Shown here: positions 1,868 to 54,775 of the stretch, one piece after another
Layout: the number at the start of each line of letters is the position of its first letter
How positions within the stretch are numbered: position 1 is the first letter of the stretch
Source: Sipunculus nudus
Taxonomy: Eukaryota > Annelida > Sipuncula > Golfingiida > Sipunculidae
DNA: 64,000 nt
Direction of reading: 5' to 3'
Assembly (NCBI GenBank): GCA_026874595.1
Contig: CM049311.1
Span: 32,383,176 to 32,447,175, forward strand
Made by a program: the position numbers and the translations under genes
Notes under the pieces: generated by a model
What the model saw: only the letters and a program-made list of their open reading frames with translations
What the model was told of the DNA's origin: nothing
Database searches by the model: none

Positions 1868-3271
1868 ATGCCCCCGCCACAAAGTGGCCAGGGCATGTAG
1901 TTTTACCCATGTCCGTCCTTCCGTCATTCCGTCAATCCGAAATCAAACAGTTGTACGGACTTTTTTTCGCAAGGCCTGCAGATATTGGCCTGATTTTTGG
2001 TGTGTGGGCAGATAATGACCAGTTACAGATCCAGTTCGCGTTTCGTCCTGGTTGACCTACTTTTGACCGTTTTACGGCTCCTAAACTTAGAAAATTTCAA
2101 GAAAAATATAAATTTTCATGACAAATACACATGTACATACTTTTTTTCACAATGCCTGCAGATATTGGCCTGATTTTTGGTCTGTGTGCAGATAATGACC
2201 AGTTACAGATCAAGTTTGAGTTTCGTTATGGTGGACCTAATTTTGACTGTTTTACGGCTCCTTAACTTAGAAAATTTTTTGAAAAATAGAAATTTCATGA
2301 CAATACACATGTACGGACTTTTTTTCACAATGCCTGCAGATATTGGCCTGATTTTTGGTATGTAGGCAGATATAGACCAGTTACAGATCGAGTTCGCGTT
2401 TCCTCCCGGTTGACCTACTTTATGATTTTTTTTACCGCTCCTAAACATAGAAAATTTCAAGTAAAATATAAATTTTTAATGACAAATGTACATGTACAGC
2501 TGTTTTAGCCCTCAGCTCATAGGCTGATGGGCTATTGTCGTCACCCAAGCTGTCCATCTGTCCGTCTGTCTGTCTGTCCGTCCGGAGTCTGTCCATCCTG
2601 CGTCTGTTAACTTTTACCTTGTGAGCGGGATATATAATAATAATGTCTAAAAGGTTTCACCGTTGCAATTTTATTTCATCAGTGAATATGTATATCGATA
2701 AAATCTCAGTCAAGTTCGAAGATTGGTGACCTTGACCCATTTTTCTACATTTTAGAGCTGATTATACAAAAACACTCAAAAGCTTATATCTCAGGAACCA
2801 TATGGTGGATTGTTATGAAACATGGTACATACCTCTCCAATTTAGATTTATAACTGATTATCAGCTTTTGCTAATATCCTAGTTTTGCAATGCAGTGCTT
2901 ACAGATACTGGCCTAATGTTTGGTCTGTGGGTGCATAATGACCACTTACAGATCAAGTTCGTGTTTCATCCCAGTTGACCTATTTTTGACCATATGACAG
3001 ATCCTGAACATAGAAAAATTTCATGAAAGACAGAAATTTTTATGATTAATGCACATGTATGGACTTTTTTTCACAATGCCTGCAGATACTGGCCTGATTT
3101 TAGGTGTGTTGCTTGATAATGACCCTTTACAGATCATGATTGCATTTTGCCCTTGTTGACCTACTTTTGACCATACGACACCTCCTGAACTTAAAAAATT
3201 TTACAAAATTTAACTAATGTTTCTAATTTGCCCCAGGCGGGGGCATTCGTGTCGTTCAGACACATCTAGTT
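1868..3271 (+). mobile_element. Helentron-like non-autonomous element E1
   Basis: The 5' end is a hairpin, ATGCCC...GGGCAT, whose left arm TGCCCCCGCC returns inverted as GGCGGGGGCA at about 3235-3244. A second small hairpin follows (GTGTC...GACAC), then the tail ATCTAGTT. A TCCGTC-type stretch follows the 5' hairpin. The interior is tandem modules of about 180 bp, starting near 1958, 2137, 2317, 2890 and 3064, each with the landmark CCTGCAGATATTGGCCTGAT or a variant. It has no coding capacity. The plan matches Helentron/HINE elements as described in other animals; the class assignment is inference. It is interrupted by F1. Confidence 0.7.
2506..2884 (+). mobile_element. Short hairpin-led element F1 nested in E1
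   Basis: The E module series is broken after CATGTAC at about 2497 and resumes at about 2885 (TTGCAATGCAGTGC). The inserted 379 bp begin with a hairpin (TAGCCC...GGGCTA, with CAGC/GCTG inner pairing) followed by TCTGTCCGTC repeats, and end in CTAGTT. Start and tail resemble families B, D and E, but the expected inverted 5' arm at the 3' end is not evident. The copy may be 3'-decayed or a relative with a different terminus. Confidence 0.5.
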
Positions 3272-3350
3272 TTTTCAGCCCTTGATGCTTGTGTTTTTTT
3301 GTGTGAGCAGTCAATTTCACAGCTTGAGAGTAAATAAAAATTTTGTTTTT

Positions 3351-6300
3351 TAGCTCAGCTGACTGAAAGTCATCTGAGCTATAGCGATCACTCTTTGTCT
3401 GTCGTCCGTCTGTCCGTCTGTCCGTCCGTTAACCAGGCACAAATCGTAACTGCTGAACCTAGAACCTTGTAACTTGGGATTCTGAGAGGTCCATGAAAAA
3501 TCTCCTTGGAAACCAGAAATTAGGTCTCTGTTACCCATATCCTTCGAGCTATGGGGCCCCAAAGTACCCCCCAGAAAAGTCAAAAATTTCATACAAAAAC
3601 TTCAATATCTCATTAACTACTTGACTGATGGTCATGATTTTTGGCATACATATTGATCATGAGATGTTTCATCAGTTTCTGCAGACTGGTGGCGCCACCT
3701 GTATTTTTTGATTTTTTACAAATTTTTTTCTCTACTTTTGAGACCTTTAAAAATGTGAACATCTGTTAACAAGGCACAAATTGTAAAGCCTAGACCTAGA
3801 ATCTTAATTCTTGATACACTGAGTGGTCCATGAAAAATCTCCTTGGAAACCAGAAATTAGGTCTCTGTTACCCATATCCTTCGAGCTATGGGGCCCCAAA
3901 GTACCCCCCAGAATAGTAAAAAATTTCATACAAAAACTTCAATATCTCAATAACTACAACACTGATGGTCATGATTTTTTGCATACATATTGATCATGAG
4001 ATGTTCCATAAGTTCCTGCAGACTGGTGGCGCCAACTGTATTTTTCGATTTTTTTACAAATTTTTCCTCTATTTTTGAGACGTTTAAAGATGCTGTCATC
4101 TGTTAACCTGGCACAAATCGTAACCGCTGGACCTAGAATCTTCATTCTCGACACACTGAGAAACCTATTAAAAGTCTCCGTGGAAACCATAAATTAGATC
4201 TCTGTTACCCATATCCTTCGAGCTATAGGGCCCCAAAGTACCCCCCAGAAAAGTAAAAAATTTCATACAAAAACTTCAATATCTCATTAACTACTTGACT
4301 GATGGTCATGATTTTTGGCATACGTATTGATCATGAGATGTTCCATCACTTCCTGCAGACTGGTGGCGCCACCTGAATTTTTCGATTTTTTACAAATTTA
4401 AAAATGTGAACAGCTGTTAACAGGGCACAAATCATAAAGACTGGACCTAGAATCTTCATTCTTGACACACTGAGAGGTCCATAAAAAGTCTGCATGGAAA
4501 CCTGAAATAAAGTCTCTGTTACCCATATCCTTTGAGCTATGGGGGGCTCCCAATAACCCCCCAGAATAATGGAAAATTTGATAAAAACAAACTGCAACAT
4601 CTCAATAACTACAACACTGATGGTCATGATTTTTGGCATACATATTGATCAAGAGGTGTTTCATCAGTTTCTGCAGACTGGTGGTGCCACCTGTATTTTT
4701 TTAAATTTTCACATTTTTTTTCTCTATTTTCGAGACCTTTCAGGATGTAGTTATCTGTCAACAGGGTACAAATCGTAAGGACTGGACCTAGAATCTTCAT
4801 TGTTGACACACAGGGAGACCCATGATAAGTCTCCATGGACACCTGAAATTAGGTCTCTGTTACCCATATCCTTTGAGCTATGGCACTCCAAAGTACAGCT
4901 CAGAATAATGGAAAATTTGATACAAAAGCTGAAGTATCTGAACAACTAATGCAGAGATCACCATAATTGTTTTCATGGATATTGATCATGGAGTGTTTCA
5001 TCAGTTTCTGCAGACTGGTGGCACCACCTGTATTTGTTCGGGTCTTTTTATGAATTTTTTTCTCTATTTTTGAGACCTTTAAAGTTATGAACATCTGTTA
5101 ACAGGGCACAAATCATTAAAACTGGACCTAGAATCTTCATTCTTGACACACAGGGAGACCCATGAAAAGTCTCCATGGAAACCTGAAATTAGGTCTCTGT
5201 TACCCATATTCTTTAAGCTGTATGGCTCCAAATTACCCCCCAGAATAATGGAAAATTTGATACAAAAACTGCAGTATCTCAATAACTACAACACTGATGG
5301 TCATGATTTTCGGCATACATATTGATCATGACCTGTTCCATCAGTTTCTGCAGACTGGGTGCGCCACCTCTATTTTTTTCAAATTTTTACAATTTTTTTT
5401 CTCTTTTTTGATACCTTTAAAGATGTGGTTATCTGTCAACAGGGTACAAATCGCAACAACTGGACCTAGAATCTTCATTCTTGTCATGCAAGAAGGCCCA
5501 TGAAAAGTGCCTGTGGAAACTTAAAATTAGGTCTCTGTTACCCATATTCTTCAAGCTATAGGACTCTGAAGTATCCCTCAGAATAATGGACAAATTTGAT
5601 ACAAAAGCTGAAGTATCTGAACAACTAATGGGGAGATCACCATGATTCTTTGCATGGATATTGATGTTTGTAAGTGTTTTTATTAGTTTCTGCAGACTGG
5701 TGGAGCCCTCTGTATTTTTGTACCCGCCATAACGAAGTTTTGTGGATACTGTGTTTTTGACCGGGTTCCTCCGCCGTTGCCGCGTTCGTTTCCAGAGAGC
5801 TCCTCTGGGACTTGATTTTATCAGCTTTCCAAGCTCATATCTCGGGAACCGTTTGACTGATCAGGAAATAAAATTTATACTAATGTAGCCCTCGGATAGC
5901 TTTATAACATACACAAAAAATGGTGGCGCCACCTGTAACCATGTTTGCACAGTGTCCATCTGTTCACCTGCCTTTGGATAAAATCACTCATATCTCTGCA
6001 GTGAATTGACTAATTCATCTGAAATTCGGCATGCGTATACATCCTGGATAGCTTTCTTGATTTTATGACAGGTGGCGCCACCTACATTCTCATTCACGCT
6101 GATGACATCCAAGCTCATATTTCGGGAACCGTTTGACCGATGGGGCCAAAATTTTGCATGTATATAGATCTAACATAGCTCTTTATCATACGCTAAACTG
6201 GTGGCGCCACCTGCAACCATTTTTGCACAGCGTTTGTCTGTTTGTCTGCCGTGCAATAATGTCACTCATATCTCGGCAGTGGTTTGACATATCTGCCTAA

Positions 6301-7235
6301 AATTTTGCAGTTTTATACATCCTGGATAGCTTTCTTGATTTTATTACAGGTGGTGCCACCTTTATTCTAGTTTATGCTGCAGACATCCAAGCTCATATCT
6401 CAGGAACCGTTTGAACGATTGGGCCAAAATTTTGCATGTGTATAGATCTCACATAGGTCTTTATCATACACAAAACTGGAGGGGCCACCTGCAACCATTT
6501 TTGCACATTTTGCACAGCGTCTGTCTGTTGGTCTGACGTGGCCTAAAAGCACTCATTTCTCTGTAGTGGTTTGACATAACTGCCTAAAATTTTTGCAGGT
6601 TTATACATCCTGGATAGCTTTCTTGATTTTATGACAGGTGGCGCCACCTACATTCTAGTTAACGCTGCACACATCCAAGCTAATATCTCAGGAACCATTT
6701 GACCGATTGGGCCAAAATTGTGCTTGTGTTTAGATCTCACATAGGTCTTTATCATACACAAAACTGCAACCATTTTTGCACAGCGTCTGTCTGTTTGTCT
6801 GCCGTGGGCTAAAATCACTCATATCCATGTAGTGGTTTGACTTTTCTGCCTAAAATTTTGCATATGTATACAACTTGGACAGCTTTCTGGATTTGTGGTA
6901 GGTTGCACAACCTACATACACATTTAGGCTGCAGACATCCATGCTAATATGCAACATACCTCACTCTGTTTCCCCTTGCCACTCAATCCATGCCTCACTT
7001 CACTCTGATTTTGGCAGATACACGTAGTCACTTGTCGGCTACCCGTATTCTAGTTTTTAAAGTTTACACATTTTTTCTCTATTTTTCAGATATATAAATA
7101 CAGACTAAATCTTGGCCTGTTGGTTAATCTGTTTGATGCTTCAGTTGAATGGGTATCTACCATTCTGATGATAAAATTTCCTTTTGTGAATCTCTTCCCA
7201 GTCAGCTGAGCGTCATGACCCATGGGTCACTTGTT
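3351..7235 (+). mobile_element. Helentron-like element A1, about 336-bp modules, interrupted by B1
   Basis: It starts with the hairpin TAGCTCAGCTGACT/AAGTCATCTGAGCTA, then GTCCGTC repeats. The 3' end carries the inverted arm GTCAGCTGAGC, a palindromic hairpin around GACCCATGGGTC, and the tail CACTTGTT. Between them lie about seven tandem modules of roughly 336 bp (starts near 3431, 3768, 4103, 4416, 4758, 5098 and 5436). Each begins TTAACnnGGCACAAATC and most contain GGTGGCGCCACC or a variant. Open frames here are short and recur per module, so they are not genes. B1 (5720-7055) sits in a T-run, and the uninterrupted site is seen in A2 near 9399. Confidence 0.75.
5720..7055 (+). mobile_element. 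Helentron-like element B1, nested in A1
   Basis: It starts with a diverged hairpin (GTACCCGCC...GTGGATAC) followed by CCGCCG-type sequence. It ends with the inverted arm GGCAGATAC, a hairpin around GTAGTC...GGCTAC, and the tail CCGTATTCTAGTT. The interior holds modules of about 280 bp with GGGAACCGTTTGACCGAT and one or two GGTGGCGCCACC palindromes each (for example 5922-5933 and 6071-6082). Removing it restores the A-family sequence TGTATTTTT...AAGTTTAC as in A2. It is non-coding and carries many substitutions relative to B2 and B3. Confidence 0.75.
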
Positions 7236-7708: not shown

Positions 7709-9590
7709 TAGCTCAGCTGACTGTAAGTCATCTGGGCTATAGCGATCACCCTTTGTCCGTCGTCCGTCTGTCGTGCCGTCCGTCCGTCCGTTAACCTGGC
7801 ACAAATCGTAACTGCTGGACCTAGAAACTTGTAACTTGACATTCTGAGAGGTCCATGAAAAATCTCCTTGGAAACCAGAAATGAGGTCTCTGTTACCCAT
7901 ATCCTTTGAGCTATGGGGCCCCAAAGTACCCCCCAGAATAGTCAAAAATTTCATACAAAAACTTCAATATCTCATTAACTACACCACTGATGGTCATGAT
8001 TTTTTGCATACATATTAATCATGAGATGTTCCATTAGTTCCTGCAGACTGGTGGCGCCACCTGTATTTTTAGATTTTTTACGAATTTTTTTTTCTATTTT
8101 TGAGATCTTTAAATATGTGAACATCTGTTAACAAGGCACAAATTGTAAAGACTGGATCTAGAATCTTCATTCTTTACACACTGAGAGACCTATGAAAAGT
8201 CTCCATGGAAACCAGAAATGAGGTCTCTGTTACCCATATCCTTTGAGCTATGGAGCCCCAAAGTACCCCCCAGAATAGTAAAAACTTTCATACAAAAACT
8301 TCAGTATCTCATTAACTATATCACTGATGGTCAAGATTTTTGGCATACATATTGATCATGAGATGTTTCATCAGTTTCTGCAGACTGGTGGCGCCACCTG
8401 TATTTTTTTATTCTTTACGAATTGTTTTCTCTATTCTTGAGACCTTTAAAAATGTGAACATCTGTTTGGGGCACAAATCGTAAAGACTGGACCTAGAATC
8501 TTCATTCTTGACACAGTGAGAGACCTATGAAAAGTCTCCATGGGAACCTGAAATTAGGTCTCTGTTACCCATATCCTTTGAGCTTTGGCACTCCAAAGTA
8601 CAGCTCAGAATAATGGAAAATTTGATACAAAAGCTGAAGTATCTGAACAACTAATGCAGAGATCACCATAATTGTTTGCATGGATATTGATCATGGAGTG
8701 TTTCATCAGTTTCTGCAGACTGGTGGCACAACCTGTACTTGTTCAGGTTTTTTTACGAATTTTTTTCTCTATTTTTTAGACCTTCAAAGATATGAACATT
8801 TGTTAACAGGGCACAAATCATAACAACTGGACCTAGAATCTTCATTCTTGACACACAGGGAGACCCATGAAAAAGTCTCCATGGAAACCTGAAATTAGGT
8901 CTCTGTTACCCATATCCTTTAAGCTGTATGCCTCCAAAATACCCTTCAGAATAATAGAAAATTTGATACAAAAACCGCAGTATCTCAATAACTACAACAC
9001 TGATGGTCATGATTTTTCGCATACATATTGATCATGAGGTGTTCCATCAGTTTCTGCAGACTGGGTGCGCCACCTCTATTTTTTTCAAATTTTTACGAAT
9101 CTTTTTCTCTATTTTTGAGTTATCTGTCAACAGGGTACAAATAGTAACAACTGGACCTAGAATCTTCATTTTTGTCATGCAAGGAGGCCCATGAAAAGTG
9201 TCTGTGGAAACCTGAATTTAGGTCTCTGTTTCCCATATCCTTCAAGCTATAGGACTCCGAAGTTTCCCTCACAATAATGGAAAATTTGATACAAAAGCTG
9301 AAGTATCTGAACAACTAATGCAGAGATCACCATGATTCTTTGCATGTATATTGACCATTAAGTGTTTTTATTAGTTTCTGCAGACTGGTGGAGCCACCTG
9401 TATTTTTTTTAAGTTTACGCTTTTTTCTCTATTTTTGAAATATATATAAATGCAGGCACAATCTTGGCCTGTTGGTTAATCTGTTTGATGCTTCAGTTGA
9501 ATGGGTATATACTACCATTCAGATGATAAAATTTCCTTTTTCGAATCTCTTCCCAGTCAGCCAAGTGTCATGACCCATGGGTCACTTGTT
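7709..9590 (+). mobile_element. Helentron-like element A2, five modules
   Basis: Same family as A1: 5' hairpin TAGCTCAGCTGACTGTAAGT with CATCTGGGCTA, GTCCGTC repeats, then about five modules of roughly 336 bp starting near 7791, 8127, 8463, 8802 and 9126. The 3' end has a decayed inverted arm (GTCAGCCAAG), the hairpin GACCCATGGGTCAC and the tail TTGTT. It lacks the B insertion, so it preserves the empty site for B1. It has fewer modules than A1, consistent with module copy-number change by recombination. Confidence 0.75.
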
Positions 9591-14279: not shown

Positions 14280-16948
14280 TAGCTCAGCTGACTATAAGTC
14301 ATCTGAGCTATAGTCGTGGTCCATTGTCCGTCGTCCGTCCGTCTGTCCGTCCGTCCGTCCGTCCGTCCGTCCGTCCGTCCGTCCGTCCGTAGATGTGGCA
14401 CGTTTTGAAACCATAAGACCTAGGAATCCAAAATTCGGCATAATGTTAGATGTCCCCAAGATCTCCTCCCAAGCCGAAAACTGGGTCTTTGCGACTTTGT
14501 TCCTTTGAGAAATTAAAGAAAAACCTCAATTTTTTATTAAAAACCTATTTTTACACTTCAGGACTGCCTAATATAAAAACCACTCATCTGTTTTTCCTCA
14601 TACTTACCATAGTTATTCCTCTATATAGTTCCTATGTACATGCCAGAAATTATGTCTGTATTATAAAAATTTAAAAAGTTATGGGCCCAAACATAATGCA
14701 TTGTGTAAAAAATCAGGAAAGATATTTGATCACTTAACACAAAATATGTTAAAGCTATAAACTTTTTTTCCAGTAATATAACTTTAATTAATCAAAATTA
14801 AATTGTATACCCAAAATTAGATCAAAATCTTTTAAATTTTTTAATATATTAACAAAAATAAAAAATTGGTACCTTAAATTTTGCCCAACTTTGACCATGG
14901 CACGTTTTTTTCCTGTAAGTACTGTGGATTTAATTTTCACAGCATGTTTTTTTTAGCATTTTGTCTGTAAACACCAAAAATTTGAAACCAGTTGATCAAA
15001 AACTGTAGATTTTATTCAAGCTTTCAAGCACCATGTAACATATTGTTTACATCAAACTAGTGTCATGCAGTTTGCAAGTGCTCAGCTCCCCAACTTCAGC
15101 TCTCAGTTCCTAAAATTTGGCATACAATTAGATGTCTCAAAAATCCCCTACCATGCCAAGAATTTGATCACTAGGACTTAATACCTTCGAGATATTAATA
15201 AAAAACTTCATTTTTCCATTAAAAACCCATTGTTACACTTCAAGACAGCCTAATATCAAAACCACTGATCTGACTTTAATCATATATAATATACATATTT
15301 TTCTATATATTCTCTATGCACATGCCAGAAATGATGTCAGTATTGCGTAATTGTTTTAAGTTATGGGCCCAAACATAATGCACTTTGTAAAAAATCAAGA
15401 AATATATTTACTCCCTTAACAAGAGGATTGCTGAAGCTAGAGATTTTTTGTCAGGGATGTAACATTATTTAATCAGGATTCAATTGAATACCCAAAATTA
15501 GTTCTGAATTTTTCAAATTGTATAAGTTATTAGTATAAATATAAAATTAGTACCTTAAATTTTGCCCAACTTTGACCATGGCATGTTTGTTTCCTGTGAG
15601 TACTGTTGATATAATTTTCATATCATGCACACATAAAGATTTCAGCTTTTTAGTTTGAAAAGCTGAAAGAAATTGGCCAAAAATTGTAGCTTTTATTGAT
15701 GTTTTTATGAGACCATGTCAGACCTTGGCTCTCTGTAGCACCTCTTGAGTCACCTGTATGTTGACCTGGTTGAACTTTCAGCAAATTATGCATGCTTGAG
15801 GCGAGACATAAACTGGGGCGTCCAGGCAGCTTATTATATAATGGCCAGCCACAGTTGATCTAGGTGTCCAACCCAACTCATCTAGTAGTTTTAACCAACA
15901 ACATAACAATAAACAATAAATTAATAAATTTTTATTGGTTTTTAATAACAAATTAAAGAAAAATAGAAAAGGAATTTGTTAGTTGATAATAACAGGAAAT
16001 TAACTTGCAGTTACCGATGATATAAGTATCTTGTATCGATGGATAGAATGTCATGTATTCCAAATAACACCATGCAGTCACCTATGGTATTTTTCAGTTC
16101 AATTTTAATGATAAAAAATTAAATCATATTATTCATTACTAATCATTAGGGATCATATGAAGGAAATTAATGATAGACAAAGATGCAGTTGATAATATTA
16201 ATCTAGATTCCCACTGTGTCTAGTTTGTACATTGATGTGAAATTAGTCCAAAATAAATATATTACATTTTTTTTTTAATATAAATAAAAGCCATAAATCC
16301 AGGTACTTATGATCATTATTTAAATGTGTGAATTTTGTATATTCTGGATTCTCAACATCATTGTTTGGTGAAAACTGAATAAATACCAGACATGGTGCGA
16401 ATACTTTGCAATTGTATTTAAACACGAATATGAATATGTACTCCATTATAAAATTTCTTTCATAAGAATGGGAATTCAGGTAAAAATGAAAGTATATGAA
16501 TACCAGTGCAAATATTTTCAAAATGTATTAATGAATGCATTCATGAATATATTCTTTAATATTATTTTAATAATCATTTCAGTCATATTTTATTTGAAAA
16601 AATCATACTATTCTCTTATTATTTTTAATAAAAATTATATTTAGGACAATATTTGTAATTTTTCTAATAAATAGTTAAACTCTTATATTATATGTTCTGC
16701 TTATATTAGTTATATGGCCAAGTCAAAATCTGTGTGACAATCCCACTCCATTTGTTAATGAAATAAATGAAATTAATCCTCTTTCCTGTCTCCAAAGGTA
16801 CTTTCAAAATCATACATAAGCTAAACAACAACAACTCATAATACAGCTTATTTTTATTACCATATAAAACCAGCATGTGCCTCATTTCTAAATCATATTT
16901 TTTTATCATATATATCAGCTGAGCACCGTGACCCATAGGTCCCTTGTT
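14280..16948 (+). mobile_element. Helentron-like element C1, ending next to an exon
   Basis: Termini match family A: 5' hairpin TAGCTCAGCTGACTATAAGT with CATCTGAGCTA, and 3' end CAGCTGAGC, GTGACCCATAGGTCCC, TTGTT. The interior differs from A. It has two diverged modules of roughly 690 bp (starting near 14400 and 15110; landmark GACCATGGCACGTTT or GACCATGGCATGTTT), then an AT-rich 3' kilobase. C2 and C3 share this interior. A GTCC microsatellite occupies 14327-14390. It is non-coding. Its last base is 10 bp before the exon at 16959, so the element forms the end of that intron. Confidence 0.75.
14327..14390 (+). repeat. GTCC tetranucleotide microsatellite inside C1
   Basis: Near-perfect (GTCC)n of about 64 bp directly after the 5' hairpin of C1. 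C2 has a shorter copy (about 44822-44868) and C3 a degenerate one (about 52150-52205), so the tract is an ancestral part of the element that varies in length. Confidence 0.85.
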
Positions 16949-19034: not shown

Positions 19035-19556
19035 CTGCATGTGTCAATTTTGACAACCCGCACCCCCCACATTATGGTTGTTACATTGAATATCAGTAGT
19101 TTTTACAAAATTTAACTTTCTTAAAAAAAAGTAGAATAATAGTTAAACCTTGATAATGTGGTCCCCTTGGGACTGAGTTAATCTACCCCCTTTTGCAGGC
19201 GCCCACTATATGGAAGTAGTTCTTGTAACATAGATTATAAGGAGGAGGAGTAATAATGGGACTGTAAAAATTTGCTCACTATTTAGAGGTGATACCTTTA
19301 TGGAGGTGTCCACTAGGATAGGTTCCAATGACAATTGGGTAAAATTTAATTTTGTTTTGATGTGCTTTTACCTGTTTAGCAAAACAATTCTGTAATTGTA
19401 TCCCCAGACAAAGTCGGGGGATACTATGTTTTCATACCGCCGCCGCCGCCGCATATAAATCTTGTTGGCGCGATAACCCAAAAAATATATCACGGAACTT
19501 TACCAAACTTGGTATATGTATAGATATGGGTAAGAGGACGACGCCTATTTAAAATG

Positions 19557-19568
19557 AGGTCATGACCT
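19557..19568. promoter_or_regulatory. Palindromic AGGTCATGACCT in D1
   Basis: AGGTCATGACCT is a perfect inverted pair of nuclear-receptor half-sites with no spacer, the classic idealised thyroid/retinoid receptor palindrome. A second, slightly altered copy (GGGTCATGACCT) lies about 330 bp downstream near 19884. Binding is not shown. Confidence 0.4.
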
Positions 19569-20055
19569 TTACTAGGAGAGTGTCCTTGACCTTGAATAGG
19601 TTCAATTTTGGGGAAAATCACACAAATTCTTTAATATTTCAAGAAATCTTGCATGGATTTATCCAAAAATCAAGTTGATGGAAGATCATGGATAGGGTTG
19701 TCATGTTCCAGATACTGGTGGCGCCACCTATTATTCTTTACTTGTTTTCGTGCTGTTTAATACCCCCAAAATTGCCACCTTACAGTACTGTGAGCATTAT
19801 AAGTCAAAAACTAATGGACAGATTTCTTTTATATTATGCATATACATAGGTATGGGTTATGGGATGATGTTTATTTAAATTGGGGTCATGACCTTTCCTA
19901 TGATAGTGGCCTTGACCTTGAATATTGCCATATATGGTGAAAATCACACACCTAGCTCTTATGATATCTCCAGTGTTGATAGCCATATGGATTTCAAACA
20001 TGACTTATGTATGGCCCACCACTAAAGTAAGAACCCTATAGGTTCTAGGGTCATG

Positions 20056-20941
20056 AGGTCAAAGGTCAAGGTCACTGGACTGGCATTTTAAAAGATACTG
20101 TGGATGCATTTTAAGCCAAACTTTCATCCTAGGTCTTCCATCTTGAATATATAGCTCACTTGCCAATAGTGGATGATCCATATAAATTTTGGGGTCACAA
20201 GGTCAAAGGTCAAGGCCACAGGAGCTATCTGTCCAAAAATTAGTTTCTGGATGATAATTCCTGCTTTTATTGATGTATGGATTTCAAACTTGACTTATAT
20301 ATGTCCCATTGGAAAAGCAAGACCCAAATTGATTTTGGGGTCATGAGGTCAAAGGGCTAGGGCACAGGACACATCTTTAAAAAGATTGTGGATGCATTTT
20401 CAGCCAAACATTTAATCTCAGACCTTTCATCATACACATATAAGTCATCTGCCAATAGAGGAAGAACCCTATCAGTTTTGAGGTCACAAGGTCAAAGGTG
20501 AAGGTCACAGGAGCCATCTGTCCAAAAATTAGTTCCTGGATGATAATTCCTGCTTTTATTGATGTATGGATTTCAAACTTGACTTGTATTTGACCCATTG
20601 GAAAAGCAAGACTGGAATTGATTTCAGGGTCATGAGGTCAAAGGTCAAGGTCACAGGAAACCTCTTTAAAAAGATTGTGGATGAATTTTCAGCCAAACAA
20701 TTCATCTCAGATCTTTCATCATGCACATATAGTTCTCCTGCCAAGAGAGGAAGAACACTATCAATTTTGAGGTCACAAGGTCAAAGGTGAAGGTCACAGG
20801 AGACATCTGTCCGAAAATTAGTTTCTGGATGATAATTCCTGCTTTATTGATGTATAGATTTCAAACTTGACTTGCATATGTCCCATTGGAAAAGCAAGAC
20901 CCGAATTGATTTTGGGGTCATGAGGTCAAAGGTCAAGGTCA
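20056..20941. promoter_or_regulatory. Seven clusters of AGGTCA half-sites (DR1-type) in D1
   Basis: AGGTCAAAGGTCAAGGTCA occurs at 20056-20074, 20635-20653 and 20923-20941. A perfect AGGTCAAAGGTCA occurs at 20200-20212. Weaker versions lie near 20346, 20489 and 20778. AGGTCA direct repeats spaced by one base are the known DR1 site class (RXR, HNF4 and PPAR types), and TCAAGGTCA is the monomer site class of ERR and NR5A receptors. The clusters arise from the module repeats of D1. Any regulatory use is inference. Confidence 0.45.
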
Positions 20942-21265
20942 CAGGACACATCTTTAAAAAGATCAAGGTCACAGGACCAACATCTTCAACAAGATTGTGG
21001 ATTGTTAGATGGAAGAAACAATAAATATGCCAAGTGTCAGTATATGTTGCTAAAAATGGGGGTCTATTCTTAAAGGGGGGGCCTACTATGTCTGGGGATA
21101 CTCTGGCACCTGCGGTGCCAAGAAATGTCTAGTTATCTTTTTGTCCCCCTGACTGTAAGAAATTTTTTGGAAGTTAAATATAAAAAAGTTTTAAAAGTAA
21201 TTGCCTTCCTGCACTGATTACTGAAAAAAAGTGCCTGAAAACCTACATCTTTGGGTGAATTTTCG

Positions 21266-37459: not shown

Positions 37460-37589
37460 TTGTATCCCCAGACAAAGTCCTGGGGTACTATGTTTTCATA
37501 CCGGTCCCCCCGCCGCTGCCACATATAATTCTTGTTGGCGCAATAACTCAAAAAATATTTCACAGATCTTTACCAAACTTAAACGCTTA
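37460..37589 (+). mobile_element. 5' fragment of a D element (D2)
   Basis: About 125 bp match the D1 5' end (TGTATCCCCAGACAAAGTCC, hairpin, CCGCC-type tract, TTCTTGTTGGCGC) and stop after TTTACCAAACTT. B2 follows at once. No D sequence resumes after B2, so this is not a simple nested insertion. Confidence 0.65.
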
Positions 37590-38765
37590 TTGTATCCGCC
37601 AAAACAGAGTTTTGCGGATACTATGTTTTCAGCTGCACACCGCTGCCGCTGCTGCTGCCGCCGCCGCCGCGTAGGTGTCCGGAGAACTCCTCCGTAACCC
37701 GGGATTATGTTCGGGTCACATGTGAACTGCTGCGCCCCGATTTTGTTTTGACCTCTTACCTTTCCTCTACGCTCTGCGTCCGTTTGTGCGTCTGTTTCCA
37801 CACATAAACCGACTTATCTCGGGAACCGTTTGACCGATCAGGAAATTTTTTTGCACAAATGTAACCCTTGGAGAGCTTTATAACATACACAAAAAATGGT
37901 GGCGCCACCTGCAACCATGTTTGCACAGTGTCCATCTGTTTGTCTGCCTTGGGTAAAAATTACTCATATCTCTGCAGTGACTTGACTAATTCACCTAAAA
38001 TTGGGCATGCATATACATCCTGGATAGCTTTTCTGATTTTATGACAGGTGGCGCCATCTACATTCACGTTTACGCTGCAGACATCCAAGCTCATATCTCG
38101 GGAACCGTTTGACCGATTGGGCCAAAATTTTGCATGTGTATAGATCTCACATAGCTCTTTATCATACTCAAAACTGGTGGCGCCACCTACAGCCATTTTT
38201 GCACAGCTCCTGTTTGTTTGTCTGCCATGGGATAAAATCACTCCTATCTCGGCAGTGGTTTGACATATCTGCTTAAAATTTTGCAGGTTTATACATCCCC
38301 GACAGCTCTCTTGATTTTATGACAGGTGGCGCCACCTGCATTCTAGTTTATGCAGCAGACATCCAAGCTCATATCTTGGGAACCGTTTGACCGATTGGGC
38401 CAAAATTTTGCATGTGTATAGTTCTCACATAGCTCTTTATCATACGCAAAACTGGTGGCGTCACCTGCAGCCATTTTTGCTCAGCGTCCATCTATTTGTC
38501 TGCCACGGGCTAAAATCACTCATAAACATATAGTGGTTTGACTTATCTGCCTCAAATTTTGCATATGTATACAACTTGGACGGCTTTCTGGATTTTGTGG
38601 TAGGTGGCGCAACCTACATACACCATTTGGCTGCAGACATCCATGCTAATATGCAACACTTCACTCTTTTTTCCCCTTGCCACTCAATCCATGCCTCACT
38701 TCACCTGTTCCACTCTGATTTAGGCGGATACACGTGGTCTCTTGTCGACTACCCGTATTCTAGTT
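37590..38765 (+). mobile_element. Helentron-like element B2
   Basis: It has a clean B-family 5' hairpin (GTATCCGCCAAAAC / GTTTTGCGGATAC) and a CTGCCGCCGCCGCC-type tract. It has modules of about 280 bp with GGTGGCGCCACC. The 3' end has the inverted arm GGCGGATAC, the hairpin GTGGTC...GACTAC, and the tail CCGTATTCTAGTT. Short open frames recur per module and are not genes. Confidence 0.8.
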
Positions 38766-41793: not shown

Positions 41794-42198
41794 TTTTTAA
41801 GATTTTTTTGGTGGAGGAACTGCCTCCATTTTTTAATGCTTTGCTTAGCTTAGTATATATGTACATCTGCAGAGTTCCATTTCGGTTTTGGACTAAGTTA
41901 CAGGGGCTTATATCCTGTTTTCCTTGTGTAAACCAGGTTTGGTATACCACTCCTGATGGCCCTGGATGTGTGGCATTCCCATTACTGGGTCATAACAAGG
42001 AGGAACCCCCATAAGGCGCACTTGTTTGTGAGTGCTATATGATTGATGGGCACAGCCTCCCCATTAAGCCTGCAGAGCACTCACCCTGGCTGGGTTGGGG
42101 GGGGGGACCATGAAAAATCTCTTCGCCTAGGCTGAGATTCGAACTCACAATCTCTCATCTTTGAGTCCTGCGCTGTACCCCTTAGCACAGAAGCCAGT
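41794..42198 (-). mobile_element. tRNA-derived SINE-like insertion inside the minisatellite
   Basis: Read on the minus strand, the head near 42190-42120 has a D-arm-like GCTAAGGGGTACAGC and a B-box-like GAGTTCGAATCTC with a T-stem of 4 paired bases. The other end (about 41794-41812) is A-rich on the minus strand, as a SINE tail should be. The flanking ACCTGTACAGCTGTT occurs on both sides (41776 and 42199). That fits a target duplication, though this string also belongs to the minisatellite unit. Length is about 405 bp. The body between tail and head is not recognised. Confidence 0.55.
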
Positions 42199-42335
42199 AC
42201 CTGTACAGCTGTTATACTGAGCTGCACATTACCTGGCTTGGCCACCTGTACAGTTATTTTACTGTGCCACACATTTCCTGGCTTGGCCACCTGTACAGCT
42301 GTTATACTGAGCAGCACTTTACCTGGCTTAGTGAA
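42199..42335. repeat. Continuation of the 45-bp minisatellite
   Basis: Three units with GCTTGGCCACCTGTACAG, in register with the array left of the SINE, ending at ACTTTACCTGGCTTAG. Confidence 0.85.
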
Positions 42336-44168: not shown

Positions 44169-47100
44169 TTGTATCCGCCAAAACAGAGTTTTGCGGATAC
44201 TATGTTTTCAGCCCACCGCCGCTGCCGCCGCGTAGGTGTCCGGAGAACTCTGTAACCGCTGGGTGGAATTTTACTAAACCAGGGATTATGTTCGGGTCAC
44301 ATGTGAACTGCTGCGCCACCATTTTGTTTTGACCTCTGACCTGTGCTCTGCGTCCGTTTGTGCGTCTGTTTCCACACATAAACCCACATATCTCGGGAAC
44401 CGTTTGACCGATCAGGAAATTTTTTTTGCACAAATGTAGCCCTTGGAGAGCTTTATAACATACACAAAAATGGTGGCGCCACCTGCAACCATGTTTGTAC
44501 ATGTTCATCTGTTCATCTGCCTTGGGTTTAAATCACTCATATCTCTGCAGTGGTATGACTAATTCACCTGAAATTTGGCATGCGTATACATCCTGGATAG
44601 CTTTTCTGATTTTATGACAGGTGGCGCCACCTACATTCACGTTTATGCTGCAGACATCCAAGCTCATATCTTGGGAACGGTTTGACCGATTGGGCCAAAA
44701 TTTTGCATGTGTATAGATTTCACATAGCTCTTTATCATACGCAAAACTGGTGCGCCACTTGCAGCCATTTTTAGCTCAGCTGACTATAAGTCATCTGAGC
44801 TATAGTCGTGGTCCATTGTCCGTCGTCCGTCCGTCTGTCCGTCCGTCCGTCCGTCCGTCCGTCCGTAGATGTGGCACGTTTTGAAACCGTAAGACCTAGG
44901 AATCCAAAATTCAGCATAATGTTAGATGTCCCAAAGATCTCCTATCAAGCCGAAAACTGGGTCTTTGCGACTTTGTTCCTTTGAGAAATTAAGGAAAAAC
45001 CTCAATTTTTTATTAAAAACCTATTTTCACACTTTAGGACTGCCTAATATCAAAACCACTCATCTGTTTTTCCTCATATTTACCATAAATATTCCTCTAT
45101 ATAGTTCCTATGTACATGCCAGAAATTATGTCTGTATTATTTAATTTAAAAAAGTTCTGGGCCCAAACATAATGCATTTTGAAAAAAATAAGGAAAGATA
45201 TTTGATCACTTAACACAAAAAATGTTAAAGCTGTGGACCTTTTTTCCAGTAATATAACTTTAATTAATCAAAATTAAATTGTATACCCAAAATTAGATGA
45301 AAATCTTTAAAATTTTTTAAAATATTAATAAACATAAAAAATTGGAACCTTAAATTTTGCCCAACTTTGACCATGGCACGTTTTTTTCCTGTAAGTACTG
45401 TGGATTTAATTTTCACAGCATGTTTTTGTCAGCATTTCAACTGTTAACACCAAAAATTTGAAACCAGTTGATCAAAAACTGTAGATTTTAATCAAGTTTC
45501 AAGCACCTTGTAACATATTGTTTACATCAAGCTAGTGTTATGCAGTTTGCAAAAGATCAGCTCCCCAGCTTCAGCTCTAAGTTCCTTAAATTCAGCATAC
45601 AGTTAGATGTCTCCAAAATCCCCCACCATGCCAAGAATTTGGTCACTAGGACTTAATACCTTCGAGATATTAATGAAAAACTTCATTTTTCCATTAAAAA
45701 CCCATTGTTACACTTCAAGACTGCCTAATATCAAAACCACTGATCTGACTTTAATCATAAACAATATACATATTTTTCGTTCTCTATGCACATCCCAGAA
45801 TGATGTCAGTATTGCGTAATTGTTTTAAGTTATGGGCCCAAACATAATGCACTTTGAAAGAAATATATTTACTCCCTTAACAAGGGCATTGCTAGAGATT
45901 TTTTTGTCAGGGATGTAACATTATTTAATCAAGATTCAATTGAATACCAAAAATTAGTTCTGAATTTTTCACATTTTATAAGTTATTAGTATAAATATAA
46001 AATTAGTACCTTAAATTTTGCCCAACTGTGACCATGGCACGTTTGTTTCCCGTGAGCACTGTTGATATAATTTTCATATCATGCACACATAAGGATTTCA
46101 GCTTTTTAGTTTAGAAAGCTGAAAGAAATTGGCCAAAAATTGTAGCTTTTATTAATGTTTTTTATGAGACCCTGTCAGACTTTGGCTCTCTCCAGCCCCT
46201 CTTGAGTCACCAGTATGTTGACCTTGTTGACCTTTCATCAAATTATGCACGCTTGAGGCGAGGCATACAGGAATCCAGGCAGCTTATGGCCAGCCACAGT
46301 TGATCCAGGTGTCCAACCCAACTCATCTAGTAGTTTTAACCAACAACATAACAATAAACAACAAATTAATAAATTTTTATTGGTTTTTAATAAATTAAAG
46401 AAAAATAGAAAAGGAATTTGTTAGTTTAAAATAACAGGAAATTATCTTGCAGTTACTGATGATATAAGAATCTTGTATCGATGGGTAGAATGTCGCATAT
46501 TCCAAATAACACCATGCAGTCACCTATGGCATTTTTCAGTTCAATTTTAATGATAAAGAAGTAAATCATATTATTCATTACTAATCATTAGGGATCATAT
46601 GAAGGAAATTAATGATAGACAAAGATGCAGTTGATAATATTAATCTAGATTCCTACTGTGTCTAGTGTGTACATTGATGTGAAATTAGTCCAAAATGAAT
46701 TTTTTACAGTTATTTTTTAATATAAATAAAAGCCATAAAACCAGGTACTTATGATCATTATTTAAATGTGTGAATTTTGTATATTCTGGATTCTCAACAT
46801 CATTGTTTGGTGAAAATTGAATAAATACCAGACATGGTGCGAATACTTTGTAATTGTATTTAAATACGAATATGATTATGTACTCCATCATAAAAATTCT
46901 TGCATAAAGAATGGGAATTCAGGTAAAAATGAAAGTATATGAATACTGGTGCAAATACTTTCAAAATGTATTCATGAATGCATTCATGAATATACTCTTT
47001 AATATTATTTTAATAATCATATCAGTTATATTTCATTTTTAAAAAATCATATGATTCTCTTATTATTTTTAATAAAAATTATATTTGGGACAATATTTGT

Positions 47101-48233
47101 AATTTTTTTTAATAAATAGTTCAACTCTTATATTACATGTTCTGCTTATAAGTTATATGGCCAAGTCAAAATCTGTGTGACAATAGTACTCCAATTGTTA
47201 ATAAAATAAATGAAATCAATCCTCTTCCCTGTCTCCAAAGGTACTATTAAAATCATACATAAGCTAAACAACAACAACTCATAATACAGCTTATATTTAT
47301 TACCACACAAAACCAGCATGTGCCTTATTTCTAAATAATATTTTTTTATCATATATAACAGCTGAGCGTCGTGACCCATAGGTCCCTTGTTGCACAGCTC
47401 CCGTCTGTTTGTCTGCCATGGGATAAAATCACTCATATCTCAGCAGTGGTTTGACATATCTGCCTAAAATTTTGCAGGATTATACATCCTGGACAGCTCT
47501 CTTGATTTTATGACAGGTGGCGCCACCTACTTTCTAGTTTACGCTGCAGATATCCAAGCTCCTATCTCAGGAACTGTTTGACTGATTGGGCCAAAATTTT
47601 GCATGTGTATAGTTTTCACATAGCTCTTTATCATACGCAAAACTGGTGGCGCCATCTGCAACCATTTTTGCACAGCATTCGTCTGTTTGTCTGCCACGGG
47701 ATAAAATCACTCATATCTGGGCAGTGGTTTGACATATCTGCCTAAAATTTTGCAGGTTTATACATCCTGGACAGCTCTCTTGATTTTATGACAGGTGGCG
47801 CCACCTACATTCTTGTTTATGCTGCAGACATCCAAGCTCATAACTCAGGAACCGTTTGACTGATTGGGCCAAAGTTTTGCATGTGTATAGTTCTCACATA
47901 GCTCTTTATCATACGCAAAACTGGTGGCACCACCTGCAACCATTTTTGCACAGCATCCATCTGTTTGTCTGCCACGGGCTAAAATCACTCATATACATGT
48001 AGTGGTTTGACTTATCTGCCTTAAATTTTGCATATATATACAACTTGGACAGCTTTCTGGATTTTGTGGTAGGTGGCGCAACCTACATACACATTTTGGC
48101 TGCAGACATCCATGCTAATATACAACACTTCCCTCTATTTCCCCTTGCCATTCAATCCATGCCTCACTTCACCAGTTCCACTCTGATTTAGGCGGATACA
48201 CGTAGTCACTTGTCGATTACCCGTATTCTAGTT
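44169..48233 (+). mobile_element. Helentron-like element B3, interrupted by C2
   Basis: B-family hairpin GTATCCGCCAAAAC / GTTTTGCGGATAC at the 5' end, CCGCCGCTGCCGCCGCG tract, modules of about 280 bp with GGTGGCGCCACC, and 3' end GGCGGATACACGTAGTCACT...GATTACCCGTATTCTAGTT. The module series stops at GCAGCCATTTTT (44772) and resumes at TGCACAGCTCC (47392). The uninterrupted module reads CCATTTTTGCACAGC, so C2 is a clean insertion with no net loss. Confidence 0.8.
44772..47391 (+). mobile_element. Helentron-like element C2, nested in B3
   Basis: Same termini and interior as C1, about 2.6 kb, with GTCC microsatellite at about 44822-44868 and two internal modules (GACCATGGCACGTTT in each). It has a few deletions relative to C1 (for example near 45880). 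It ends CAGCTGAGCGTCGTGACC, CATAGGTCCCTTGTT. The insertion point lies in a T-run and can be read as between two T's. Confidence 0.8.
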
Positions 48234-50120: not shown

Positions 50121-50455
50121 AGGCCAAAAAAAATGAAAGGTATGGTTCTCAGGCACCGCCCGCATCAATTTTAAACCCCCGCATCAAAAATTTTTACTTT
50201 GATTTTCAATAAAAACTTTCCAATTTTGAGCTGCTGCCGCTCCGACATTTCTTTAAAGAAGGTAAAACCATACAATTTCCTTTATGTAGTGCTTTTACTT
50301 ATTTAGCAAAATAAAACTGTTATTTTCATGCTTTTCCCTTATCATTTGACATTTTTATCGAAACATACCAAAAAATTTAAAATAAAAAAAGCGCCCGCCC
50401 GCATTGATTTCTGAAAAAAAGTGCCTGAGAACCATACCTTTTTTTATTTTGGCCT
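50121..50455. mobile_element. MITE-like element G2
   Basis: Ends AGGCCAAAAAAAATGAAAGG and, inverted, CATACCTTTTTTTATTTTGG followed by CCT. The internal GGTTCTCAGGCAC returns as GTGCCTGAGAACC, as in G1. Length is 335 bp, non-coding. It has an extra short segment (near 50215-50260) relative to G1. Confidence 0.75.
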
Positions 50456-51749
50456 TATTACTAAATATTTGTTTTGCAAAACAGCCATTACCCTCTGAAG
50501 TTATATCTCTTAGGGCTGTGTATCGGCGCTAATTTCACCTTGTCCACTTACAGTGTCCATTGAATGAGGATGAAGGTGACCTTATGATGAGAACGGCATG
50601 TTGTTATTGAGCTTTTAGGATTTCAGGTTTTTATGAACAGGACTAAAATTAATCCAGAAATTATAATGTGTTGTTTAGACATTAGAGCAAAATATATATA
50701 TCTGAGATTATATCAAGGTTTCACCTCTTTAATTAAGTCATTCAAATATAAGATATTATTCATTGTTAATTCAGTTTCTGAAAAACATCAGACATACCTA
50801 TTTAAACAATTAAAACAAATCTATATAAACCTCTGCTTCATGTTTTCTGCAGGATGTCAAGGACAGTGGTTCTAATTGGTTGGTAAATCATGTTCAGTGA
50901 TAAAACAAAAATTAACGACTAATGGTCATTCATTAATCGATTTTATTTTATGATATTTTATGTACCCTCTATATTGCCATGAAATCAGATGCATAGAATT
51001 ATATCTAAAATATGTTAATTATTCTGACTTGTTCATCATGCTGAGAGGTAACTGTAACAGCCTGGTTATTGACACTGTTGCAAAAGGTTCCATTAAAATG
51101 CTGTTCGCTTTGTGTCCTATCTTTCTAATTTTTCTGACAGGTTTAGATTTTTGTGGATTTTGCATTCTTGGAATGCCCTGAGACTTTCATGAGATTCTGT
51201 TCATGATCATTAGATTTATGTTGTATACAGACAAACACACAAACGGGGAGGAATACATACCCTCCTGGCAGAGGCAACAAATGGCTAAACATAATATGGT
51301 GCATATTATATAATAGCCAAAGTTTTGCTTGATCTGGTTGTGAAGATAAAATTGAGACTAAAAGAACTGTGTTTTGAGTCTTAGTCTTAAGAATTATATT
51401 GCTGCTAAAATGTCCCAAAAAGTTCGGTTCCTCAGTTCAAAAATGGGCCCACATATAGATGGCAACCCCTAAAGTGGCACCTGTCTGTAAGGCACAGCCT
51501 TCCCATTTGCCTCAAAATGTCCTCTACTCACTGGATATTTAAACATTTTCATAATGTAAGAGGGACACCCCCTCCATACCCTCCCCCATTTACCTATATA
51601 TAATTGACTGTAAACAACAAGGCTCTGGCTCATATAATCTAAGAAGAAATAAAATTACAAAATTTATATTTTGAAAAGGCTGAATCTATTATGTAAAAAT
51701 TAAAGGTAGGGCAATATGATATATTGCATTATTGATATACTATAGGCAC

Positions 51750-51802: not shown

Positions 51803-51806
<4 letters not shown>

Positions 51807-52044: not shown

Positions 52045-52047
<3 letters not shown>

Positions 52048-52098
<51 letters not shown>
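52048..52098. repeat. (AT)n microsatellite abutting C3
   Basis: TA dinucleotide run of about 51 bp ending 3-4 bp before the 5' hairpin of C3. Confidence 0.95.
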
Positions 52099-52101
<3 letters not shown>

Positions 52102-54775
52102 TGAGCTCAGCTGACTATAAGTCATCTGAGCAATAGTCGTGGTCCATTGTCAGTCGTCCGTCCGTCTGTCTGTCCATCTGTCCGTCCATCTGTCTGTCCG
52201 GATGTCCGTTCGTAAGACTGGCACTTTTCGACACCATTGGACCTACGAATCTGAAATTCGCCATACAGTTAGATGTCCCCAAAATCTCCTACCATGCCGA
52301 AAATTGGGTCAATAGGACTTTGTTCCTTTGAGATATTAAGGAAAAACCTCAATTTTTTATTAGAAATCTATTTTCACACTTCAGGACTGCCTAATATCAA
52401 AACCACTCATCTGGTTTTCTTCATATTTACCATAAATATTCCTCTATATAGTTCCTATGTACATGTCTGAAATTAAGTCAGTATTATTTAATTTAAAAAA
52501 GTTATGGGCCCAAACATAATGGACTTTGTAAAAAAATCAGGAAAGATATTTGGTCACTTAAGACCATAAGTGTTAAAGGTAGGGACTTTTTTTCAGTAAT
52601 ACAACTTTAATTGATCAAAATTTAATTGTATACCAAAAATTAGATCAAAATCTGTTAATTTTTTTTAAATATTGGCAAAAATATAAAATTGGTACCTTAA
52701 ATTTTGCCCAAGTTTGACCATGGCACGTTTTTTTTCTGTAAGTACTGTGGATTTAATTTTCACAGCATGTTTTTGTTAGCATATTGTCTGTTAACACCAA
52801 AAATTTGAAACCAGTTGATCAAAAACTGTAGATTTTATTCAAGTTTTCAAGCACCATGTCACATCAGGTTTACATCAAGCTAGTGTTATGCAGTTTGCTA
52901 GACCTCAGCTCCCCAGCTTCAGCTCTAAGTTCCTTAAATTTAGCATACAGTTGGATGTCTCCAAAATGCCCTACCATGCCAAGAATTTGATCACTAGGAC
53001 TTAATTCCTTCAAAATATTAATGAAAAACTTCATTTTTCCTTTAAAACCCCATTGTTCCACTGTAAGACTGCCTAATATCAAAACCACTGATCTGACTTT
53101 GATCATATATAATATACATATTTTTCTTTACATTCGCTATGCACATGCCAGAAATGATGTCAGTATTGCCTAATTGTTTTAAGTTATGGGCCCAAACACT
53201 TTTTTAAATATCAAGAAATATATTTACTCCATTAACAAGAGGATTGCTTAAGCTAGAGATTCTTTGTCAGGGATGTAACATTATTTAATCAAGATTCAAT
53301 TGAATACCAAAAATTAGTTCTGAATTTTTCAAATTTTAAATTTATTAGTATAAATATAAAATTAGTACCTTAAATTTTGCCAAACTTTGACCATGGCACG
53401 TTTGTTTCCTGAGAGCACTGTTGATATAATTTTCATATTATGCACACATAAGGATTTCATCTTTGTAGTTTAGAAAGCTGAAAGAAATTGGCCAAATATT
53501 GTAGCTTTTATTAATGTTTTTATGAAACCATGTCAGACCCAGGCTTAATCTAGCCCCTCTTCAGTCACCTGTATGTTGACCTTGTTGACCTTTCATCAGA
53601 TTATGCATGCTTGAGCGAAGCATACACTGGGGCAGCCAGGCAGCTAATGCCCAGCCACAGTTGATCCAGGTGTCCAACCCAACTCATCTAGTAGTTGTTT
53701 TGAAAAACAACATAACAATTAACAATAAATTAATAAATTTGTATTGTTTTTTTTATAACAAATTAAAGAAAAATTTATAGAAAAGGAATTTGTTAGTTGA
53801 TGAGTAACAGAAAATTAACTTGCAGTTACTGATGATGTAAGAATCTTGAATGGATGGATAGAATGTCAATGTCAATGTTAATCCAAATAACACCATGCAG
53901 TCACCTATGGTATTTTTCAGTGAAATTTTAATGATAAAAAAATAAATCATATTAATCATTCCTAATCATTAGGGATCATATGAAGGAAATTAATGATAGA
54001 CAAAGATGCAGTTGATAATATTAATCTAGATTCCTACTGTGTCTAGTGTGTTGATTGATGTGAAAGTAGTCCAAAGTGAATATATTACATTTATTTTTTA
54101 ACATAAATAAAAGCCATAAAACCAGGTACTTATGATCATTATTTAAATTTGTGAATTTTGTATATTCTTGATTCTCAACATCATTGTTTGGCTAAAACTG
54201 AATAAATACTAGACATGGTGCAAATGCTTTGCAAATGTATTTGAATACGAATATGAATATGTACTGCATTAAAAAATTTTATTGCATAAGAATGGGAATT
54301 CAGGTAAAAATGAAAGTATTTGAATACCAGTGCAGATACTTTCAAAATGTATTCATGAATGCATTCATGAATATATTCTATAATATTATTTCAATAATCA
54401 TTTCAGTTATATTTTATTTTAAAAAATCATATGATTTTCTTTTTATTTTTTTTTTAAATAAAAATTATATTGGCACAATATTTGTTATTAAATTTTAATA
54501 AATAGTTAAACTCTTTTATTATATGTGCTGCTTATAAGTTATATGGCCAAGTCAAAATCTGTGTGACAATAGCACTCCATTTGTAAATAAAATAAGTGAA
54601 ATCAGTCCTCTTCCCTGTCTCCAAAGATACTATCAAAATCATACATAAGCTAAACACCAACAACTCATAATAAAGCTTATATTTATAACCACACAGACAA
54701 GCATGTGCCTCTTTCCCAAATCATGTTTTTTATTATATAGAACAGCTGAGCGCCGTGACCCATGGGTCCCTTGTT
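52102..54775 (+). mobile_element. Helentron-like element C3
   Basis: 5' hairpin TGAGCTCAGCTGACTATAAG with CATCTGAGCAA, degenerate GTCC/GTCT tract, two modules (GACCATGGCACGTTT near 52717 and 53389), AT-rich 3' kilobase. The 3' end is CAGCTGAGC, GCCGTGACCCATGGGTCC, CTTGTT. It is collinear with C1 and C2 throughout. Non-coding. Confidence 0.8.

Follow-up and report, generated by a model that had tools for sequence, protein, structure and literature searches.

HINEs, which are non-autonomous Helentrons, are known as a kind of transposable element, and the parts of the oyster report covered here describe satellite-carrying HINEs as widespread in oyster genomes (PMC7492417). The same text gives the Cg_HINE elements of the Pacific oyster a subterminal inverted repeat (subTIR) with a complementary inverted repeat, a GTCC-type microsatellite, satellite-like central repeats, a 3' subTIR and a palindrome, inserted into TT-rich sites with no duplication, and relates none of 10 autonomous Helentrons to these HINEs. 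A like anatomy and like insertion sites were found in a stretch of 64,000 nucleotides of the Sipunculus nudus genome (contig C6, positions 32383176-32447175; hereafter the window), which holds 11 elements or fragments of families A to E on a Helentron-like plan, all on the + strand. These are very probably HINEs, composed of ends and satellite-like tandem modules and moved in trans by the Rep/helicase/endonuclease proteins of Helentrons. HINEs have been described before, and what deserves pursuit is their connection to an autonomous Helentron that carries the same satellite-like modules, together with the blocks of common orientation in which copies lie. The genome comprises 1.43 Gb in 153 contigs.

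Anatomy and insertion sites of the window elements

The preliminary description of the window had proposed at least nine copies, from four families of unrelated sequence (A/C, B, D and E) with one common order of parts; 11 elements or fragments are now counted. The common order was recovered by a blind scan, given no family sequence, for a 9-nt arm in a hairpin, its exact inverse 0.6-5 kb further on and CT[TA]GTT within 50 nt. The 16 hits in the window fell on eight of the 11 named elements (E, A1, C1, D1, B1, B2, C2 and C3) and on nothing else, missing A2, B' and the fragment D2, and compare with a mean of 1.18 hits in first-order Markov sequences (40 runs, maximum 5), two in the reversed window and none on the opposite strand. 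The observation of a common terminal plan is thus confirmed. When the 5' hairpins of one copy each of A, B, D and E were folded, none of 200 shuffles was equally good. Subterminal inverted repeats, the 5' one inside a hairpin, and a microsatellite after it are traits shared with HINEs. Only three reading frames of at least 120 amino acids occur across the window, none of them inside an element.

Family A is represented by A1 (3352..7235), with the hairpin GCTCAGCTGAC, a GTCC microsatellite, 337-bp modules and, at the 3' end, GTCAGCTGAGC, the hairpin TGACCCATGGGTCA and CTTGTT, and by A2 (7710..9590). Family C comprises C1 (14281..16948), C2 (44773..47391) and C3 (52104..54775), and the A/C arm GCTCAGCTGAC stands at 3353, 7711, 14282, 44774 and 52105. 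To family B belong B1 (37592..38765), B2 (44171..48233) and the B-type B' (5720..7055); its arm GTATCCGCC lies at 37592 and 44171 and the inverse GGCGGATAC at 38723 and 48191. Element D1 of family D (19398..21134) consists of the GTATCCCCAGACA hairpin, a CCG microsatellite, 289-bp modules, the inverse arm, a GGCACC/GGTGCC hairpin and TCTAGTT; the arm is found at 19398 and, in the 5' fragment D2 (37462..37580), at 37462, and its inverse at 21089. The family E element (1868..3271) has a 5' hairpin beginning ATGCCCCCGCC, a GTCC-like microsatellite, 180-bp tandem modules, the inverse arm, a GTGTC/GACAC hairpin and ATCTAGTT, with the arm TGCCCCCGCC at 1869 and its inverse at 3236. The arms had been described as paired with exact inverses in every family. 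Inverse pairs are indeed present, but the exact A-type GTCAGCTGAGC occurs at 7201 only, the C copies match it over 9-10 bases, the inverse arm of A2 is degenerate (GTCAGCCAAGT) and that of B' carries one change (GGCAGATAC).

The label of unrelated sequence proved only partly right, because A and C have both ends in common, B and D share the 5' arm, with GGATACTATGTTTTCA after the hairpin, and A, B and D share ACTGGTGGCGCCACCT. In a one-strand comparison, pieces of ACTGGTGGCGCCACCT were the only 11-mers present in three families besides microsatellite words and TAAGTCATCTG, which was found in A, C and D. The core of ACTGGTGGCGCCACCT is the 12-bp palindrome GGTGGCGCCACC, located in modules of A, B and D between 3688 and 47794. 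It occurs in the window 16 times exactly, 11 times with one mismatch and five times with two (expected count 0.55, from 20 Markov sequences), and 31 of these 32 occurrences lie inside A, B or D elements. At 28106-32941 a 64-bp unit is repeated about 75 times in an array (93% matches), after which comes a further fragment containing a GGTGGCGCCACC-like module. Tandem arrays of 67-bp and 45-bp units, at 21277-22276 and 40847-42329, lie outside the named elements.

Nesting, which the preliminary description had taken to give exact ends, was found in two cases. B' splits A1 at a filled site of 5+5 T's, against eight T's in the homologous place of A2, and C2 splits B2 at 5+2 T's, against five in the homologous module, the uninterrupted sequence CCATTTTTGCACAG being present in other B modules; both comparisons use paralogous modules in the window, not the same site before insertion. 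In each case the two additional T's may equally have come with the element or represent a duplicated TT, and no longer duplication is present. D2 and B1 do not form a clean nest, because the likeness of D2 to D1 stops about 11 bp before B1.

Copies of family B were aligned with their flanks. The best 41 of 9,440 candidates (40 scored) were the window's own copy, one partial copy and 39 copies near full length. With the query extended by 15 bases, 28 of these 39 stopped exactly at 38765, the proposed 3' base of B1, and 11 aligned 2-15 bases beyond it. Seven of eight loci fetched, among them B1 itself, have constant ends in dissimilar 20-base flanks, with a 5' flank ending TT, then GTATCC, and CTAGTT at the 3' end; the eighth did not match the search expression. 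Together with the two nested sites, these loci support the proposed insertion between T's, as the sites lie in T-rich tracts and show no target-site duplication beyond TT. The preliminary description had named such duplications, and terminal inverted repeats extending to the outermost base, as evidence against itself; none of the window elements has terminal inverted repeats reaching the outermost 3' base. Across the genome, the exact D tail pattern occurs 1,951 times (985 forward, 966 reverse; reversed control 0) and the A/C pattern 17,171 times (8,696 forward, 8,475 reverse; control 0).

The end of element C1 lies 10 bp before an AG resembling the splice acceptor of a + strand exon (...TATTTCAG, with an open + strand stretch of 140 codons; 16948-17394), and the element was apparently inserted into the T-rich tract preceding this exon. 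A Pfam search of the 140-codon stretch gave no match.

Family A ends and modules on a Rep-helicase-endonuclease element

A shared or related autonomous Rep/helicase partner, located outside the window, had also been postulated, and the search for Rep-helicase genes with the termini of the families gave an answer for A and C. On contig C17 (35625400-35641000, covered by the loci L066, L085 and L053), a Helentron of 14,884 bp extends from an A-type 5' terminus at 35640360 to an A-type 3' terminus at 35625477. Its 5' terminus is followed by 337-bp modules, 75-77% identical to those of window family A over 1.2-1.3 kb, and a B element is nested between the modules and the coding frame. One stop-free frame, 2,342 codons long when counted from stop to stop (35633527 to 35626502), encodes Rep motif 2 FFYRVEFQQRGSPHIH, Walker A, Walker B and GDFNID, and YIVSYVSK (YxxxYxxK) was spotted by eye. 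Pfam identified Herpes_teg_N (PF04843, E 4.4e-13, within the first 509 amino acids), Helitron_like_N (PF14214, E 1.6e-27), DUF6570 (E 1.1e-16), PIF1 (PF05970, E 4.8e-23) and Exo_endo_phos (PF03372, 25.3 bits at a cut-off of 24.5), and by sequence the protein matched PDB chains of PIF1 helicases and Helraiser (7lcc, E 1.1e-11). This copy therefore combines the Rep motif, PIF1 helicase and C-terminal AP-endonuclease of Helentrons. In a second copy on contig C1 (71789260-71805195), of which both ends and a Rep match at 71800017 between them were seen and the rest of the interior read only in part, the 5' hairpin agrees at 26 of 27 bases and the 3' tail at 32 of 33. Because the 5' end, the tandem modules and the 3' end are all shared, family A is best read, from its sequence, as an internal-deletion relative of a full Helentron in the same genome. 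This sharing makes the link between a HINE and an autonomous element testable, and it shows that satellite-like modules can belong to the autonomous element and need not be later filler.

For family C, the 3' end was linked to a Rep gene. At 71189229 on contig C7 lies a coding region with PF14214, DUF6570 and a helicase C-terminus, whose endonuclease fragment scores below the Pfam cut-offs. Behind it stand 33 bases that agree at every position with the final 33 bases of window element C3. A copy on contig C3, 97% identical to this Helentron, has kept the tail (29 of 33 aligned), and another copy on contig C7 was read as a segmental duplicate because its flank matches too. Family C has its 3' terminus in common with another, diverged subfamily of Helentrons, and the partners of A and C are different but related Helentron subfamilies.

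Genome-wide, at least 143 matches to PF14214 (Helitron Rep) were found. The 30 loci read fall into the large group IEFQARGSPHAH, the groups FYRVEFQQRGSPHIH and FYRIEFQQRGWPHVH, and a canonical type (L010, IEWQKRGLPHVH). It is the FYRVEFQQRGSPHIH group that bears A/C tails, and this type of motif is a Helentron signature according to the covered text of PMC4067079. Among 21 Rep or helicase loci surveyed (hel1, hel2, L043-L046 and L049-L063), 10 carry an A/C-type 3' tail, counting a duplicate (L044) and a partial one (L058), and the 3' ends fetched at two further places both agree with this tail at 32 of 33 bases. When the coding ends of 14 of these loci are arranged in a tree, the tail variant sorts with the coding clade: the C-type tail with hel2, L043 and L044 (three loci including the duplicate), the A-type with L053, L062 and L063, and a G-type (TGGCCC/GGGCCA) with L045, L056 and L061, the other five loci having no tail. 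The large Rep-helicase group IEFQARGSPHAH includes L039/L040 (C11:50385293) and most of L011-L033, with frames of up to about 2,400 amino acids, many of them stop-free. A short repeat around AAGTGCCTGAGAACC, found upstream in hel2 (position 842), also occurs in the window in both orientations about 250 bp apart (1500-1815 and 50415-50457) and resembles the ends of another small element.

Families B, D and E are built on the same plan as A and C. In 18 kb of hel1 (C11:50385293, QARGSPHAH Rep group, 2,235-amino-acid frame) neither their tails nor their 5' arms were found, and a non-exhaustive search that took in the region after the L035-type Rep (L046), another 15 helicase loci and the divergent L057 type assigned none of their ends there. 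Pieces of B and D at L057 and L059, and E copies beside hel2 and C8, were read as insertions. The postulated partner has thus been found for A with both ends (contigs C17 and C1) and for C with the 3' end only, but not for B, D and E.

Several observations weigh against the reading of the elements as HINEs served by Helentrons. No B, D or E tail was assigned as the own end of any of the 21 surveyed loci, which are part of the Rep hits. An A/C tail is lacking in 11 of these 21, in some of them because of nested insertions. Both A-type ends were seen in two copies only, and for the C-type Helentron hel2 the 12.7 kb preceding its Rep did not extend to the 5' end. PF14529 stayed below its cut-off in both Helentrons tested (24.0 against 27.4 in the C17 copy). 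The second small 3' hairpin, which the preliminary description had ascribed to each family, was folded for one copy each of A, B, D and E. It folds well in D (equalled by none of 200 shuffles) and in E (equalled by one of 200), but in A it does not stand out from shuffles (equalled by 54 of 200) and in B2 there is no fold. The A 3' palindrome becomes visible only through pairing across 11 distinct tails, which were selected for matching and in which related rows are counted more than once: their stem is 90.9% paired, one pair changes from A-T to G-C in three sequences, and the covariation score is equalled in 3 of 500 shuffles. The count of pairs changed on both sides is reached by 336 of 500 shuffles, and the pair-type count by all 500.

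The C17 copy itself also leaves room for doubt, since two A-type 5' termini stand there oddly in tandem (L066 reverse strand, positions 641 and 1365), and the A-type 5' module beside the coding region might be an independent truncated HINE, placed there fortuitously, so that only the 3' ends would be shared. This genome is very densely populated with HINE tails, including the 17,171 A/C tails already mentioned, and most long matches to the noncoding stretch that follows the C17 modules have no listed Rep nearby: of 42 genomic matches, 16 span at least 500 bases (C17 included), and four of these (C17, C10:71608663, C5:42920862 and C1:71791199) are followed within 9 kb by a listed Rep, as is a shorter match at C9:52355404. 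Such Rep-less long matches may be larger non-autonomous copies, or their Rep may lie outside the matches listed. Against a chance neighbour speaks that no A-type 3' tail was found in L066, whose 9 kb include the 5' termini and the beginning of the frame (best 18 of 33 matches), and that the inner 5' terminus recurs at the same junction, together with modules and noncoding stretch, in three of four further loci (L069, L070 and L071; not L068), with a listed Rep 8-9 kb downstream in L069 and L070. On contig C1 the outer terminus again lies upstream of a Rep and an A-type tail, and the chance explanation is judged quite unlikely. Nine places were fetched for the outer 5' end, where four 5' hairpins agree at 25 or more of 27 bases (L073, L074, L077 and L080; L074 is the inner terminus and L080 ambiguous), three places lie in modules and two show nothing.

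Two other explanations concern the kind of element. Canonical Helitrons have 5' TC, 3' CTRR and insertion between A and T, and a canonical-type Rep is present in this genome (L010); the CTAG with which B, D and E end before TT fits CTRR. It is the only feature that does so, as the 5' ends of the elements begin with A or G, A and C end CTTG, insertion occurs after T, and the partners found bear the Helentron signature F-Y-R...G-S-P with an endonuclease-like domain, so that canonical Helitrons are very unlikely. Cut-and-paste miniature inverted-repeat transposable elements or satellite arrays that are alike merely at their ends would agree with the satellite-like modules filling the interiors, and a TT duplication is formally compatible with the nested sites. 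The lack of terminal inverted repeats to the outermost base on the 3' side, the exact ends in dissimilar flanks and the ends held in common with Rep-helicase elements make this extremely improbable. The Helentron-like reading is the one supported.

Nine short matches to the noncoding stretch break at one common base. Two of these, L083 (C13:51407400-51410600) and L084 (C8:45117800-45121000), were read and are composites with the same junctions, in which the 5' part of an A-type Helentron precedes a 3' fragment of E with its CTAGTT end and then more A modules; their interpretation as simple deletion derivatives was dropped.

By analogy with published Helitron work, including the covered part of the Helraiser paper, Rep would nick the 5' end in the T-run, and the strand would be peeled off up to the 3' inverse arm and hairpin, which would end the process. 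The strand, or a circle formed from it, would then be inserted at TT.

Orientation of insertions along the chromosomes

All 11 window elements point along the + strand. Availability of targets is not supported as the cause, as T-runs and A-runs outside the elements are about equally frequent (407/380, 120/141 and 43/60 for runs of at least 4, 5 and 6). The AT skew of the window outside the elements is -0.026. Genome-wide tail totals are balanced between the strands, and orientation was followed along contig C1 in 100 A/C tails listed (64036-4325960) and in the D tails listed (137706-56223371). In the 4.3-Mb stretch, 78 A/C tails are on the minus and 22 on the plus strand, and they form 15 orientation runs compared with 35.3 in shuffles (none of 20,000 as few). 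For distances below 20 kb and of 20-50, 50-100 and 100-200 kb, pairs agree in 81%, 90%, 84% and 82% of cases, respectively, and for 200-400 kb, 400-800 kb and 0.8-2 Mb in 67%, 72% and 62%; the 78:22 mix alone gives 66%. Each of the eight D tails in this stretch, four on the plus and four on the minus strand, has the orientation of the A/C tail closest to it. Over 56 Mb, pairs of D tails agree in 7 of 7 cases below 20 kb and in 13 of 15 at 20-50 kb, and in 41-66% beyond.

A tentative explanation is that the orientation of insertions of unrelated Helentron-type families is set regionally, over about 0.1-1 Mb, with the transposon strand entering single-stranded DNA at the replication fork on a preferred template strand. 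This is possible rather than probable. D runs overall (45 against 50.2 expected, p 0.17) are not significant, and most of the signal comes from one chromosome end. Gene direction may be the cause instead, and some close pairs may be local duplicates. The window cannot decide between fork and gene direction, because its one likely exon lies on the strand along which the elements point. If the blocks were genome-wide and linked to replication, insertion of single-strand transposons in animals would be tied to fork polarity, and if the fork explanation were true, the orientations of thousands of HINEs would constitute a fossil map of replication-fork direction in the animal germline, a eukaryotic counterpart of IS608.

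Relation to known systems

Single-strand transposition of IS200/IS605 elements is HUH chemistry. In the covered part of a review, element orientation in this family (IS608) follows replication direction (PMC5371812), and the present elements would resemble them in single-strand transposition with an orientation pattern. Those elements are bacterial, and the pattern found here is a regional correlation of orientation. Neither orientation blocks of Helitrons or Helentrons nor an autonomous partner of mollusc HINEs is reported in the covered text of PMC7492417, PMC4067079, PMC9741609, PMC11136912, PMC12628747, PMC10294476, PMC5371812 and PMC5876387, a selection outside Repbase and most subscription journals.

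Tegument-like deubiquitinases have been described in Helentrons, also of molluscs, and Herpes_teg_N (PF04843) likewise lies in the frame of an endonuclease-bearing Helentron here; the text covered draws no tie to HINEs or satellites (PMC9741609). With the Helentrons, HINEs and DINE-1 elements of mite, Culex and Drosophila, as far as that report was covered, the elements of S. nudus and their partners have in common Rep motif 2 (F/Y-x-R and G-S-P), a PIF1 helicase and an AP-endonuclease, as well as subTIRs, flanking T's, a 3' palindrome, which here folds well in D and E, and HINEs read as deletion derivatives (PMC4067079). In contrast to those elements, tandem modules are present here also inside the autonomous element.

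By analogy, the element types found here resemble those of bivalves. In the text covered, Cg_HINE groups have related ends and unrelated repeats, as do families A and C (PMC7492417). With lengths of 337, 278, 289 and 180 bp, the modules described here mostly exceed the 140-180 bp of the oyster and, unlike the situation of Cg_HINE, a Helentron with the ends and modules of family A was found in the same genome.

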